Below are positions 26,636 through 31,816 of a DNA stretch of 64,000 nucleotides, piece after piece (the first letter of the stretch is position 1; each line of letters opens with the position of its first letter). The translations under genes were made by a program, and so were the position numbers. The DNA lies in contig JAJYUJ010000003.1 of assembly GCA_021792615.1 (NCBI GenBank), positions 1 through 64,000 of the forward strand, written 5' to 3'. The notes under the pieces were generated by a model. It made no database searches and was not told where the DNA came from. It was given only the letters and a program-made list of their open reading frames with translations. Origin of the DNA: a bacterium (GTDB lineage: Bacteria; JAMCPX01).

Positions 26636-26678
26636 AAAGGCAGGTTTTCGGGACTACCCCCCCGTGGCTCTTGCCTTT
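26636..26678 (-). terminator. Hairpin after the beta-barrel gene
   Basis: AAAGGCA (26636-26642) pairs with TGCCTTT (26672-26678). The loop is long and partly structured (CGGG and CCCG). It begins at the stop codon of the minus-strand beta-barrel gene and is followed by TTTATC, consistent with a modest terminator. Confidence 0.4.
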
Positions 26679-27682
26679 TATATACGGTAACTTATCCCTG
26701 CTATCCACACGGTCTGAGGCGTTGTGTAGACGGACCCCGATGTCCGGTTGAGCTTTCTTGATAAGGACAGTTCTGCTGCCAGTGCTATCCGCAGTCCGTT
26801 AACCGGTGTGTAAAAGATTATGCCGGGAGTAAGATACAATGGGTTCTGATCGAACGATACGTTTGCGAATGACGGGTCGTTTACAGCATAAGAGCTGTAA
26901 CTGTTTGCGAATTGAGAGGTAAACTCCAGCATAGGTTCTATGTAATAGTGCGGAAGCGGAAACAAAAGCGAGCATGCCAGTAAGGTACGGTTGTCTCCCC
27001 GTATGCCCATAGCATATTTGCCGGCCGGCGGAATAAAAATGTTGTCATTCGATGAAATAAGATTTTGCGTATTGTCCCACAAATATCCGAGACGCAGGTT
27101 GGCTATCAGGGGAAACGACAGAGATGAATGGAGCATATCATACGACGCCAGAAGGCTCAGTGTGTAGCTTGTCGCATTACCGTTGTATCCTGCATACCCG
27201 GCGCTTCCCGCTTTACTATAAGTTAAAATTTCACCGATCCCCCCCACACTGAGCTGCGGTAAGATGTTATAGCCCGTTTTAATGCCGATACGCAGGTCTC
27301 CCGAATAATTCAGGGTTTGCGAAGAGCTTATCCTGCTTGAAGAATAGAGGGAACCTATAGATACATCCAGATAGCGGACAGGAGCGTATGAGAATACTCC
27401 GTAGAGTGTATCATTCTTCAATGTGTCCCCTGTTCCAAGCATCGCCTGCTGATAGGTGTAGGCATTATAGAGGGCGACACCCGCGACACCAGGCTTTATA
27501 AAGGCAGAAGGTACTTGCAAAGAACCGTGCTGTCCTGTCATGGAAACACCCGTGCAGGCAGGGCTTTTCGTTTCTATTGCCGTGTAAGGAGGAGGTGTGA
27601 TTGTTTTTGTCTGATTTGAGTCTGCCTTTGCATAACCTGCAAGCGTCAGTATACCGAGAATCATTATGAAACATTTTCTCAT
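26678..27682 (-). CDS. Predicted outer-membrane beta-barrel protein, function unknown
   Basis: About 334 aa with a signal peptide (CFIMILGILTLAGYAKA) and then alternating hydrophobic/aromatic strands rich in Ser, Tyr and Gly. It ends in SYRI, close to the C-terminal aromatic signature of outer-membrane barrels. No named family was recognised. GGAGG precedes the ATG at MRKCF; an upstream in-frame ATG overlapping the radical SAM gene has no ribosome-binding site. Last gene of the operon with the radical SAM, HPr-kinase-like and nucleotidyltransferase genes. It could present or export a modified product, but that is inference. Confidence 0.6.
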   Translation of the reverse strand: MRKCFIMILGILTLAGYAKADSNQTKTITPPPYTAIETKSPACTGVSMTGQHGSLQVPSAFIKPGVAGVALYNAYTYQQAMLGTGDTLKNDTLYGVFSYAPVRYLDVSIGSLYSSSRISSSQTLNYSGDLRIGIKTGYNILPQLSVGGIGEILTYSKAGSAGYAGYNGNATSYTLSLLASYDMLHSSLSFPLIANLRLGYLWDNTQNLISSNDNIFIPPAGKYAMGIRGDNRTLLACSLLFPLPHYYIEPMLEFTSQFANSYSSYAVNDPSFANVSFDQNPLYLTPGIIFYTPVNGLRIALAAELSLSRKLNRTSGSVYTTPQTVWIAGISYRI

Positions 27683-27729
27683 GTAGCCTCCATTATTCAT
27701 CAGGCAGGCATTCCTGCAAGTATGCCGCC

Positions 27730-28800
27730 TCACCCTTTTTTCATTTCAGAGGGATGCTTTTTCATTCTGTGGCTGTGCTTTGTTTTTATGAAATCCGCTG
27801 CCCATGGGTCATTCTTATAAGATTCCATCCAATCTATCTTACCGAAATATTTTGAACAATAAAAACAGGGAAAGTAGTCGAGCCCGGTTATTTGTTCGTT
27901 TTTGATGAGATCTATCTTGTTAAGGTTGAACGTATGGATCGCATCTGCCCACATTTTATGGGCATCGAATAAACTGACGGTATTGAGATCCGCGATTACG
28001 TCGAGTTCTTCCTCGTGTGCTCCCGTATACCCGGATATCTGGCAGCAGAATGAAAGCCTGCCTTTATAGTCTATGTTCGGAGAATACATGGTCAGTGCCC
28101 TGCATTGGAAGAACAACAGGGGTTCGTAGTGACCGAGAGAAAAGTTTATTTCTATCTTCATGATGTTTTTCAGTTTTTCGACCCTCTTCTCCGCTTCCTT
28201 ATACTCCCCGGGCGACAGTACAAGGTCCTGCTCGAACGCAAGCGTCGTTGGCTCGAGATGTGCATAAAACAGCCTTTTTAGTCCGAGTTCCGATGCGAGA
28301 ACCGCCATCTGCTCTATTTCGTTAAAATTCTTTTTATTGACGGTGATCTGGACACTGATATCTATTCCCTTGATTTTCAGGATGCTGATTGCCTGCAGGA
28401 TTTTTTTGAACGAACCCTTACCCCGTAAATAATCGTGGGTCTTCTCGTTTGAGCCGTCAAGGGAGATCGAGACACCGGAAAGTTTACCGATGCGGCCGGG
28501 AAAACGCGGGTCATTCAGCATTTTCCAAACGGACAAGAAATTCCATGCATTTGTCACGAAATGATACGTATAACCATGCTGCACTACCGTATCGATGATT
28601 TGGGCGAAGTGCGGGTGGAGTGTTGGTTCGCCACCGGTAAATGCAATATGTTTCAGATTATACGCCTTTGCCTGTTTCAGTATGCTGTCGAACAGTTCGA
28701 TGGATATAAAGCTTCTCATGTCCGTTTTGTCCCGCAAACAGTGCAGGCAGCTTAGGTTGCATTTATTCGTCAGCTCGAAACTCATCTCATAAAACGACAT
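27730..28800 (-). CDS. Radical SAM protein with SPASM-like C-terminal cysteines
   Basis: Radical SAM enzyme, 356 aa. The cluster motif CNLSCLHC is at residues 14-21, followed by TGGEPTLHPHF and VSISLDGSNEKTHDYLRG, typical of the peptide- and cofactor-maturation branch. Additional cysteines (FQCRAL, FCCQIS, PCFYC) in the last third suggest a SPASM or twitch-type auxiliary cluster. The C-terminal tail is strongly basic (HSHRMKKHPSEMKKG). Lies 24 bases downstream of the HPr-kinase-like gene and has a G-rich ribosome-binding site. No precursor peptide gene is obvious. Confidence 0.8.
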   Translation of the reverse strand: MSFYEMSFELTNKCNLSCLHCLRDKTDMRSFISIELFDSILKQAKAYNLKHIAFTGGEPTLHPHFAQIIDTVVQHGYTYHFVTNAWNFLSVWKMLNDPRFPGRIGKLSGVSISLDGSNEKTHDYLRGKGSFKKILQAISILKIKGIDISVQITVNKKNFNEIEQMAVLASELGLKRLFYAHLEPTTLAFEQDLVLSPGEYKEAEKRVEKLKNIMKIEINFSLGHYEPLLFFQCRALTMYSPNIDYKGRLSFCCQISGYTGAHEEELDVIADLNTVSLFDAHKMWADAIHTFNLNKIDLIKNEQITGLDYFPCFYCSKYFGKIDWMESYKNDPWAADFIKTKHSHRMKKHPSEMKKG

Positions 28801-28824
28801 CGTCTTCCCCCCTTTTGTGTAAGT

Positions 28825-29784
28825 CTATTCATTACTTATCCTTTTAAAAATAATCAATGGATCTTTTAAAAGGTCCCTCCCGCAGAGGCAAAGGTATGCC
28901 TTTGTCTGGCGGGTGAGTGCATTCAGCGTACCGATGTGTTTGTCTGCCGTGCCCTTGTGAAAGAACATCATCAACGATTGCGGTATCAGAAGGGACATGG
29001 CCCGGGTGCTTTCAAGGGGCACTATCTCCGTATCCTGCCGCTTCGCGAGTTGTAAAAAGAAAATGGTTCGGGGGATCACACTGCGGACTGTCTTGAACCT
29101 GCTGTACGGGATCATGGCCTTTCGAAAGGGCGGTGCCGGAGGTTTTGTGCCTTTCAATTCATGCGCATACTGCAGGAGTGTTTTCCCGGTAACGTGCACG
29201 TCTTTCCTGAAACCGACGGCACGTATCGCTTTTCCTTCATGCTTCAGGAAGACGGCATCATCGGAGCACAGCGTATAACCCTTGAACACGAGTCCGAGGG
29301 ATAGTGTCGTTTTGCCGGACATACCCATCCCGCACAACAGGATTGAATCGTTGCCCTTTTTGACGGCGCTTGCATGGAGATAATAAAGCCCGCGGTGCCG
29401 GAGAAGTTCTATCAAAGCTATCGTGATAAAAATAGATACAAATTCCGTTCCCCTCTTCAGTACCGGTATATCCACATAGGCATCGGCCCTGTCATGCGAT
29501 GAGTCGACGAGGACTGCCGTGCGTTTGTCGGACAGCAATAAAATGCCGTTTTTCAATCTGTACCCGTTAATCCTGCCGTAGGAAAACAACACAGGATCGT
29601 TTTTACCGGGCACAACCGGGGTTTTTCTGCATGTGGTGGCACTGATTGTTATCCGGTGCTTTGTTCCGGCACTGCTCTGTACGTTGTAGCCCGAAAAAAA
29701 TGTCTTTAACGCGGCAAAGACGGCGGGGGCGTCTGCCCTCACGGACACGGCAACGTCCGATATCTTAAAGGTAAATTGTCTCAT
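28825..29784 (-). CDS. HPr kinase-like P-loop protein
   Basis: 319 aa protein whose central part resembles the C-terminal kinase domain of HPr kinase/phosphorylase. Walker A is GMGMSGKTTLSLGL (about residues 153-166), preceded by YYLHASAVKKG and followed by YTLCSDDAVFLK, which matches the HPrK pattern. The first 120 residues are a separate domain without recognised similarity. Proteins of this type occur in radical SAM cassettes such as SynChlorMet (ScmC), from memory. Its ATG overlaps the stop of the nucleotidyltransferase gene by four bases. Substrate unknown; a small-molecule or peptide kinase is possible. Confidence 0.65.
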   Translation of the reverse strand: MRQFTFKISDVAVSVRADAPAVFAALKTFFSGYNVQSSAGTKHRITISATTCRKTPVVPGKNDPVLFSYGRINGYRLKNGILLLSDKRTAVLVDSSHDRADAYVDIPVLKRGTEFVSIFITIALIELLRHRGLYYLHASAVKKGNDSILLCGMGMSGKTTLSLGLVFKGYTLCSDDAVFLKHEGKAIRAVGFRKDVHVTGKTLLQYAHELKGTKPPAPPFRKAMIPYSRFKTVRSVIPRTIFFLQLAKRQDTEIVPLESTRAMSLLIPQSLMMFFHKGTADKHIGTLNALTRQTKAYLCLCGRDLLKDPLIIFKRISNE

Positions 29785-30485
29785 CTTGATGCGAACATGC
29801 CCTTTTTAGCCTGCTCAAGGTTCTTCGGATTACCGATATCGATCCAGAATCCGTTATGCAGGTGACCCGCAATAAGCCTTTTGTTGCCGAGCATCCCGGG
29901 ATACATGTGCATGGTCGTCGACGGCTGGTGTATGTTTTCTGGAATATAGTTTATGGTATCGGGCTTCAGGAATTGAATGCCGGTGAATATGTAGGGGGCG
30001 GTATCCGGAGTGGGCTTGAAAAGGCCTTGGACATATCCGTTTCTGTCCATGTAGACATTCGCTAAACCCGCTTGTTCATGGTTTGCCTGATAAAGTACCA
30101 TAACCGCATCCGCTCCCTTCTCTTTTAATAAAGGGGGCAGGACCGCTAAATCAAGATCGAACAAAATATCCCCATTGATGAGATAAAACGGTTCGGTGAG
30201 GAATTTCCTTGCCAGTAACAGAGCTCCTCCCGTACCCTTGATTTCCGGTTCCGGCGAATATTGGATTGAAAGCCCGAACTGCGAACCGTTCCCGAGCCTT
30301 TGACGTATCATATCGCCAAGATGGTGGATGTTTATCACGATATCTTTTATACCCGCCTTTTTCAGGGCATCAAGCGTGTGCACGATTACCGGTTTTCCAT
30401 TTATTTCGATAAGCGGTTTGGGGATTGTCCCGGTGAGGGGGCGTAACCTCGTTCCAAAACCCGCCGCAAGTATCATAGCCTTCAT
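29781..30485 (-). CDS. Sugar-1-phosphate nucleotidyltransferase (MurU-like)
   Basis: Nucleotidyltransferase of the NTP_transferase family, 234 aa. The N-terminal motif MILAAGFGTRLRPLTGTIPKPL is diagnostic, with GTGGALLLA and YLINGDILFDLD (metal-binding Asp) following. Size and the C-terminal WIDIGNPKNLEQAKK match MurNAc-1-phosphate uridylyltransferase MurU and heptose-1-phosphate nucleotidyltransferases; the sugar is uncertain. A longer in-frame reading would cross the promoter and the inverted-repeat element. MKAMILAAG is the family start. First gene of a four-gene operon, with the expected transcription start at the ATG. Confidence 0.85.
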   Translation of the reverse strand: MKAMILAAGFGTRLRPLTGTIPKPLIEINGKPVIVHTLDALKKAGIKDIVINIHHLGDMIRQRLGNGSQFGLSIQYSPEPEIKGTGGALLLARKFLTEPFYLINGDILFDLDLAVLPPLLKEKGADAVMVLYQANHEQAGLANVYMDRNGYVQGLFKPTPDTAPYIFTGIQFLKPDTINYIPENIHQPSTTMHMYPGMLGNKRLIAGHLHNGFWIDIGNPKNLEQAKKGMFASR

Positions 30486-30934: not shown

Positions 30935-31816
30935 ATGGACCAGATGAACCAAATGAACCGAATGCAGATGATAAAAAACAGAATAGATTCTTTTCCCAGG
31001 GGGAGCTTATCGGCTTCAAACCATTATTGGTGCGTGACCTGTAAGAAATATTTTGTTCTGGATAAACCGGAGTGTCCGTATATGGCGGGGATGTGCATCA
31101 ATACCCCGATTGCGGTAGAAAATCTTGCTCCGGAGAGTACGGAAGCTCTTGAAAAATTCGGCTTATTTTATCCGAAAATACCGCAAAGGATTTTGAGCAG
31201 CGCCATCCACGACCATTTTCCCGAAACAGGGGAGCGATTGGCCGTGACCTATCTTGATTTTCTCAAGGAGTGGCGGTTTGATATTTCCGAACAACAACCC
31301 TTGCAAACCGTCAAAAGCTTCATCATCCTTTTAACCGGCTGTGAGACCGCGCAGAGAATAAATGAAAAATCCATAACATTCGTTCTGATGGATGCCGGGA
31401 AGATCTGGGAAAAAGATAAGATAAAGAAAATACTTGAGGGGAGTCTTGCGTATTTGAAAAACGTTTTAAAAATTGAACACGAGCTGCACCTCGACTTTAT
31501 CGATATTTTCGGGGAACGGGAGGTTGGCAAATATTACTGCGCAAAATGCGGAATGTTCTTCGAGTTCGGTATTAAACGGGATACCGTAACCTGTCCGCTT
31601 ATGTCCCAGAAATGTATGTTCGATCCGCAGCACATAGAAAAGGCATCGTACAGCACGGATAAATTCGTCAAACAGTTCGAAATAACGCCGGACATTTACA
31701 AACGCTTTATGCAAGGTATCGATAAAAAGAATATTTCTTCCGATGCTCTGAGCGCAATAGCGAAGGAATGGAAGATCGCAGACAGGCAAGACGAAATAAT
31801 GTCTAAATTCTTTTGA
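30935..31816 (+). CDS. Unrecognised protein with duplicated Cys4 motif
   Basis: 293 aa; family not recognised. Two equivalent cysteine motifs are present: C33-x2-C36-x10-C47-x6-C54 and C202-x2-C205-x14-C220-x6-C227. The second half of each reads CPYMAGMC or CPLMSQKC. Each motif is followed by a helical stretch ending in a similar FLKEWRFD / IAKEWKIA segment, so the protein looks like an internal duplication. Zinc or an Fe-S cluster could be bound. No signal peptide or membrane segment. The start follows CGGAG. The N-terminus is Met/Asn/Gln-rich. Divergent from the nucleotidyltransferase operon. Confidence 0.7.
   Translation: MDQMNQMNRMQMIKNRIDSFPRGSLSASNHYWCVTCKKYFVLDKPECPYMAGMCINTPIAVENLAPESTEALEKFGLFYPKIPQRILSSAIHDHFPETGERLAVTYLDFLKEWRFDISEQQPLQTVKSFIILLTGCETAQRINEKSITFVLMDAGKIWEKDKIKKILEGSLAYLKNVLKIEHELHLDFIDIFGEREVGKYYCAKCGMFFEFGIKRDTVTCPLMSQKCMFDPQHIEKASYSTDKFVKQFEITPDIYKRFMQGIDKKNISSDALSAIAKEWKIADRQDEIMSKFF

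Follow-up and report, generated by a model that had tools for sequence, protein, structure and literature searches.

Four kinds of described system come closest to the locus reported here. In lasso peptide biosynthesis the B1 protein is of the PqqD type and has been shown to present the leader. The SynChlorMet cassette brings together the kinase-like ScmC, the PqqD-like ScmD and the radical SAM (rSAM) proteins ScmE and ScmF, and HprK-related A and B systems (TIGR04352, TIGR04355) are also relevant. Lasso leaders carry a motif at positions -17 to -12 and a threonine at -2 (PMC10368454). The kinases PadeK and BsfK of phosphorylated lasso peptides act on Ser/Thr, and PsmN of pseudomycoidin was reported to extend the phosphate (PMC9266682, PMC10368454). 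Linear polyphosphorylated peptide (LPP) systems, described as restricted to Bacillota, have the leader motif YxxPxVLxHQxIxFETxxS, an SpI-like leader peptidase and an MsbA-like transporter (Popov et al. 2026, PMC13381572). In the open-access literature searched, we found no description of the kinase/rSAM/PqqD/B2 combination presented below.

The window analyzed is a stretch of 64,000 nucleotides from a bacterial genome (GTDB lineage Bacteria; JAMCPX01; G000 below). The HprK-like kinase and rSAM enzyme that it encodes very probably act in trans as tailoring enzymes in a RiPP system whose leader is handled in the lasso manner. The parts of this proposed system are divided among three loci: the window locus and loci on contigs C2 and C22. 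An earlier note, made from the letters of the window, had instead proposed a single four-gene operon that may modify a small molecule or glycan. The minus-strand quartet was borne out at 26678-30485 (Table 1), as was the 4-base overlap (ATGA) of the kinase-like gene into the nucleotidyltransferase gene. The rSAM gene starts 24 bases after the kinase gene, and 27682 is the best start for the fourth gene. The single leaderless promoter that had been proposed found no support in a consensus scan: shuffled sequence would be expected to give 7.8 promoter-like sites and the actual sequence gave 6, with none at 30485. No RNA families other than two tRNAs were detected near the locus. On the opposite strand, a 293-aa protein (30935-31816, +) with no Pfam match has two similar Cys-containing segments (PECPYMAGMC and TVTCPLMSQKC).

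Table 1. Genes of the window locus, with positions counted from the first letter of the window
Product	Coordinates	Strand	Remarks
Sugar-1-phosphate nucleotidyltransferase, MurU-like, 234 aa	29781..30485	-	NTP_transferase 2.7e-32
HprK-like kinase, 319 aa	28825..29784	-	Pair with rSAM kept across phyla
Radical SAM enzyme, 356 aa	27730..28800	-	CX3CX2C plus five other invariant Cys
Exported protein, probably beta-barrel, 334 aa	26678..27682	-	Signal-peptide-like start; no family match

The four genes are two modules, one consisting of the nucleotidyltransferase and the barrel protein and the other of the kinase and the rSAM enzyme. Within the window's own family (f1), the block is kept in the same order in G004, G005, and G002, but the co-occurrence breaks down in G006 and G007. 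In G006, orthologs of the nucleotidyltransferase and the barrel protein (64% and 63% identity) adjoin across a short gap and neither kinase nor rSAM is found there; in G007 the two also adjoin, and the kinase and rSAM genes lie on a different contig. The barrel gene of G008 directly borders the final part of an rSAM gene, the rest of which is lost at the contig end. Based on these three neighborhoods, the kinase and rSAM genes are retained or lost jointly, independently of the other pair, and the nucleotidyltransferase and barrel protein are not core to the peptide system. The separation in G006 and G007 is close to the scattering in relatives that the earlier note had named as its own refuting result, and we dropped the idea of a four-gene system on the strength of these two neighborhoods.

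It is thus very unlikely that nucleotidyltransferase, kinase, rSAM enzyme, and barrel protein are jointly responsible for producing a modified small molecule or glycan and exporting it. The 4-base overlap, the conservation of the block in three relatives and the MurU-like character of the nucleotidyltransferase would suit such an operon; against it stand the separate pairing in G006 and G007 and the fact that distant phyla combine the kinase and rSAM genes with PqqD and B2, without this nucleotidyltransferase or barrel. The nucleotidyltransferase itself scores 170.1 bits with the MurU model NF045761, below its curated cut-off of 250. The term outer-membrane barrel had been based on composition; a signal-peptide-like start agrees with export, but the protein has no Pfam or NCBIfam match and its AlphaFold model (from four sequences) is unusable at pLDDT 30.8. 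Paralogs occur in f1 genomes.

A scan of named genomes with an rSAM alignment returned 19 near-full-length relatives, 3 from the window's family and 16 from outside it. The outside genomes belong to Schekmanbacteria, Sericytochromatia, Deltaproteobacteria, Nitrospira, anammox planctomycetes, Thermodesulfovibrionia, one gammaproteobacterium, Desulfosarcina, and Trueperaceae. At nearly all 16 outside loci, PqqD and Transglut_core3 (lasso B2) genes stand beside the rSAM ortholog, and at about two-thirds there is also an NTP_transf_5 gene; L089 and L083, both short contigs, show only a partial cassette. The earlier note was right to place pairs of HprK-like and rSAM proteins in peptide-modifying cassettes. 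The kinase and the rSAM enzyme form an ancient pair, and their distances are correlated (Mantel rho 0.65, permutation p 2e-4). Cys77 and His114 of B2 are invariant (17/17).

Related arrangements were also seen. G049 has a second HprK-like/PqqD/rSAM locus (L035 7614-10212), with a 67-aa Cys-containing ORF, a candidate precursor, right after the rSAM gene. Six further cassettes (L036, L192, L198, L199, L202, L204) combine another rSAM subfamily with PqqD or B2 and mostly an HprK-like kinase, and their precursors have a YxxP- or FxxP-type leader, such as MTIKKKYIKPVLTKYEKVRDVTTATVALEGTASAADCTLTRCTSEPPAIKG. A Paceibacterota contig (L098 2203-7650) carries a run of five radical SAM genes.

The earlier note had suggested looking for short ORFs near homologous loci, and this search was productive: an ORF of 48-62 residues, usually with a ribosome-binding site, lies directly upstream of the kinase gene at 14 of the 16 outside loci. 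The typical product reads ...FxEPKLTFIEPKLTKHGDATKITG-GFFGTFVP. No small ORFs were found beside Schekmanbacteria-type cassettes, and none with the motif inside the window locus or the C2 locus. A profile of 13 outside precursors gave a weak match in the window's genome (E 2.06), with 0.067 in G005 and 1.06 in G002; these three matches are related to one another. The candidate in the window's genome, on contig C22, has 63 aa, MSEKKLNKRTAKPQKAESKPAGINQTSKKTFIEPELKEYPSLTEVTL before the predicted cleavage site and LTVPGVSGATFFKTFK after it, and its gene, with its own 11/12 promoter, GGAGGAG and a terminator of 10 pairs, makes up a transcription unit by itself. The G005 precursor has the same flanking genes and shares with it FIEPEL(K/R)EYPSL(T/K)EVTLLT...SGATFFKTFK. 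A second profile, built from three family precursors, retrieved G007 (4e-17) and G008 (3e-17), neither of which is in the profile, and four copies in G049 (3e-8 to 3e-5), also unused in building it. G049, whose lineage is unrelated, encodes a close ortholog of the rSAM enzyme, and its precursors are unlinked.

Precursors and rSAM orthologs occur together. Among 386 genomes, the ortholog (E<=1e-35) is present in 16, and 11 of these have a precursor match (E<=1e-3; Fisher p 4e-12); once the seven genomes that contributed to the profile are set aside, a precursor is found in 4/9 genomes with the ortholog versus 11/370 others (p 1.8e-4). Precursor matches below 1e-10 are confined to eight genomes, all eight with the ortholog; one of them, G194, is in no profile, and its precursor is unlinked too. 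Several of the precursor-like matches in the 11/370 genomes lacking the ortholog stand beside other rSAM/kinase/PqqD genes, and in G113, G127, G232, G249, and G264 the neighbors belong to other radical SAM subfamilies. The leader motif alone is therefore unspecific, and this leader type is wider than the family. No NCBIfam model names the precursor of the window's genome or most relatives tested; the one from Trueperaceae matches a general lasso-leader model.

All 23 aligned precursors have [FYW]xxPx[LIVMT] at -17, where the residue is mostly Phe rather than Tyr, and Thr at -2; as the Thr column fixes the register, the independent observation is the constant spacing between motif and Thr. The motif takes the form FIEPELxEYPxLxEVTL or FIEPKLTKHGDATKIT. 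Predicted cores have 6-22 residues (the 5-residue core of L092 was shortened by the coordinates used, and its ORF continues), with Asp/Glu at positions 7-9 in none of the 23. Phe-Phe is found in 21 of the 23, G047 and G002 being the exceptions, and is also missing from the out-of-sample cores of G197 and G324. Across precursors the core is most often Phe-Phe-x-(Thr/Ser)-Phe; examples of short cores are SFFGTF in Loosdrechtia and GFFGTFTPNNLS in Desulfosarcina.

Large secreted proteins recur near the precursors. Most unlinked precursors (L174-L180) adjoin a large secreted lipoprotein, and the four precursors of G049 are accompanied by several related partners of 1048-1071 aa, of which the one tested has no Pfam match. 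Near anammox precursors (L087 4687-8250; L089 435-1712 and 5146-9519; L090 5848-8652), large secreted proteins end in a Lys/Arg-rich linker and FFGRF(R/Y)P, the precursor motif (FFGTFVP) with the leader absent. The secreted neighbors have a common domain within the anammox/Nitrospira/Deltaproteobacteria group. Between f1 and G049 the relationship is only suggestive (hhalign E 5e-4, probability 32%), and the shared domain was not found in the precursor-adjacent secreted protein of G047; we therefore abandoned the idea of one common domain over all lineages.

The earlier note had reported PqqD-like partners and a precursor peptide as missing, and this is true at the window locus, but both are encoded elsewhere in the same genome. 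That genome is 99.55% complete; above cut-off, it contains a single PqqD protein and a single Transglut_core3/B2 protein. Both lie on contig C2, in an operon of overlapping genes for PqqD, a PD40 beta-propeller lipoprotein, B2 and NTP_transf_5. The PqqD protein matches PF05402 with 48 bits (cut-off 23.4) and the lasso PqqD NCBIfam models at 2.8e-14, under their own cut-offs; B2 passes the lasso_biosyn_B2 model NF033537 (35.1 bits, cut-off 33). The same type of operon occurs in G001, G002, and G004, and is divided between two contigs in G005. In G047 the rSAM and B2 genes have a PD40 gene between them, and on a Sericytochromatia contig a PD40 gene adjoins rSAM; these two cases connect the C2 operon with the window pair. 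About 27 kb separate the window locus from the end of its contig, and 15 kb or more the C2 and C22 loci from the ends of theirs, so the three are genuinely apart. Directly upstream of PqqD, a 917-aa secreted lipoprotein with no Pfam match (L072 10236-12986, minus strand) is kept in the family genomes that carry the C2-type operon.

As the gene for the peptide and the remaining parts are found elsewhere in the genome, the partners that seemed to be missing are scattered, not absent. With partners on other contigs, there is no need to postulate a small molecule or glycan as substrate, and the one proposed by the earlier note is left unsupported. In the window's genome, the link between the three physically unlinked loci consists of homology, single copy number and co-occurrence. 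In G006 kinase, rSAM, PqqD, and precursor were undetected and no Transglut_core3 exceeded the cut-off, so that all five components are missing. PqqD is present and kinase and rSAM were undetected in G001 and G003, both about 80% complete; G004, an assembly of 410 contigs, has the rSAM gene and no significant precursor match. One could also imagine that, in the window's phylum, the kinase and rSAM enzyme were recruited to another substrate and that the loci on C2 and C22 are a remnant, independent or in decay. The loci are indeed unlinked here and linked in most other phyla. We nevertheless hold this to be very improbable, given that leader and core (FIEPEL...TFFKTF) are kept across f1 genera, that the catalytic residues are intact, that all parts are jointly missing in G006 and that G049 and G194 likewise combine an intact cassette with unlinked precursors.

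The kinase matches Pfam Hpr_kinase_C weakly (8e-4, below cut-off) and the NCBIfam models HprK_rel_B (1.1e-12, 47.8 bits) and HprK_rel_A (1.9e-8, 33.8 bits), far below their cut-offs of 200. Residues H137, G157, K158, G169, D175, D176, K222, and D304 are invariant in 22/22 relatives. A fold search in the PDB with its AlphaFold model (pLDDT 90.2) returned PEPCK as the best match (8e-9) and also HPr kinase; the PEPCK matches span most of the model at a TM-score of about 0.6 and an rmsd of 6-8. This is consistent with a predicted PEPCK/HprK-type P-loop fold, and we count the fold search as support only. The N-terminal 120 residues, which the earlier note called unrecognized, are common to the whole subfamily, and in the predicted structure they fold into a lobe rich in beta structure, with pLDDT mostly at 73-94.

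The rSAM enzyme matches Pfam Radical_SAM at 3.2e-22, and its best NCBIfam match is ScmF. Eight cysteines are invariant in 22/22 relatives: C14, C18, and C21, and C233, C252, C253, C312, and C315. They go some way toward the earlier description as SPASM-type, but they are fewer than the full SPASM set and the window protein has no Pfam match to SPASM; judged from this cysteine set, one auxiliary cluster would fit better than two.

For the scattered RiPP system that we favor, the following pathway can be proposed. The genome's single PqqD, encoded on C2, would bind the FIEPEL leader motif, as its homology and the motif suggest. The kinase is predicted to phosphorylate Ser/Thr of the precursor, probably in the core, by virtue of its homology to lasso kinases and its His-Lys-Asp-Asp residues. 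The rSAM enzyme is predicted to modify the core, and its association with precursors would point, family-wide, most often to the Phe-Phe-x-(Thr/Ser)-Phe segment; that the reaction is a cross-link at aromatic residues is a guess, and a doubtful one. NTP_transf_5 may then lengthen the phosphate, like PsmN in pseudomycoidin, and the B2 cysteine peptidase would cleave after residue -1. We speculate that the large secreted protein beside most precursors may partner the extracellular product.

A further, very improbable reading is a true phosphorylated lasso peptide of the paeninodin/Bsf type, with the cyclase encoded elsewhere and the rSAM enzyme as extra tailoring: PqqD/B1, B2, HprK-like kinase, NTP_transf_5, and leader layout all fit and PF00733 proteins are present in the genomes, but we rejected it, because no asparagine-synthetase-type protein occurs in the window, at C2 or C22 or at the distant cassette loci searched, the inspected PF00733 copies start with (M/V)CGI and its amidotransferase Cys, like asparagine synthetases, and the ring acid at 7-9 is missing from every core, some cores having just 6-8 residues. 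More tentatively, and with the odds somewhat against it, the scattered system could constitute a distinct RiPP class, in which a lasso-related core (RRE, B2, kinase, NTase) has an auxiliary-cluster rSAM enzyme replacing the macrolactam cyclase and introducing a novel linkage into a short Phe-Phe-x-(Thr/Ser)-Phe core; scattered precursors would share a single cassette, and each would be paired with a large secreted protein.

From a broader perspective, an orphan operon becomes a testable peptide pathway with a named precursor, a predicted cleavage site and enzymes, and this pathway reaches an unclassified bacterial lineage as well as Nitrospira and anammox bacteria. The findings suggest a union of lasso-type leader machinery with radical chemistry, and they suggest that RiPPs are overlooked by gene-cluster mining where the precursor gene lies at a distance from those of the enzymes.

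Compared with known systems, the HprK-related A/B systems share the HprK-like kinase, and type A also has a small PqqD-like protein, but with the window kinase the models for these systems give just 33.8 and 47.8 bits, their cut-offs being 200. SynChlorMet likewise unites HprK-like, PqqD-like, and radical SAM proteins; here, however, the ScmF and ScmC scores (90.8/400 and 16.1/125 bits) are both far under the equivalog cut-offs, and there is a single rSAM gene, plus B2 and NTP_transf_5. LPP systems resemble ours in the discrete RRE, HprK-like kinase, NTP transferase, YxxP-like leader, and absence of a macrolactam cyclase, and differ from it in that we find a B2 cysteine peptidase and an rSAM enzyme, another leader motif and other phyla. 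With the phosphorylated lasso peptides (paeninodin PadeK, pseudomycoidin PsmK/PsmN, Bsf) the system shares the split B1 (PqqD) and B2 (Transglut_core3), an HprK-like kinase with His-Lys-Asp-Asp, an annotated nucleotidyltransferase, the -17 to -12 motif and Thr at -2. Unlike in those peptides, the cyclase is absent at the loci, the core has no acid at 7-9, and, in the window's phylum, the parts occupy three separate loci; an rSAM enzyme is found instead, and the best reading is that it occupies the place of the lasso cyclase.
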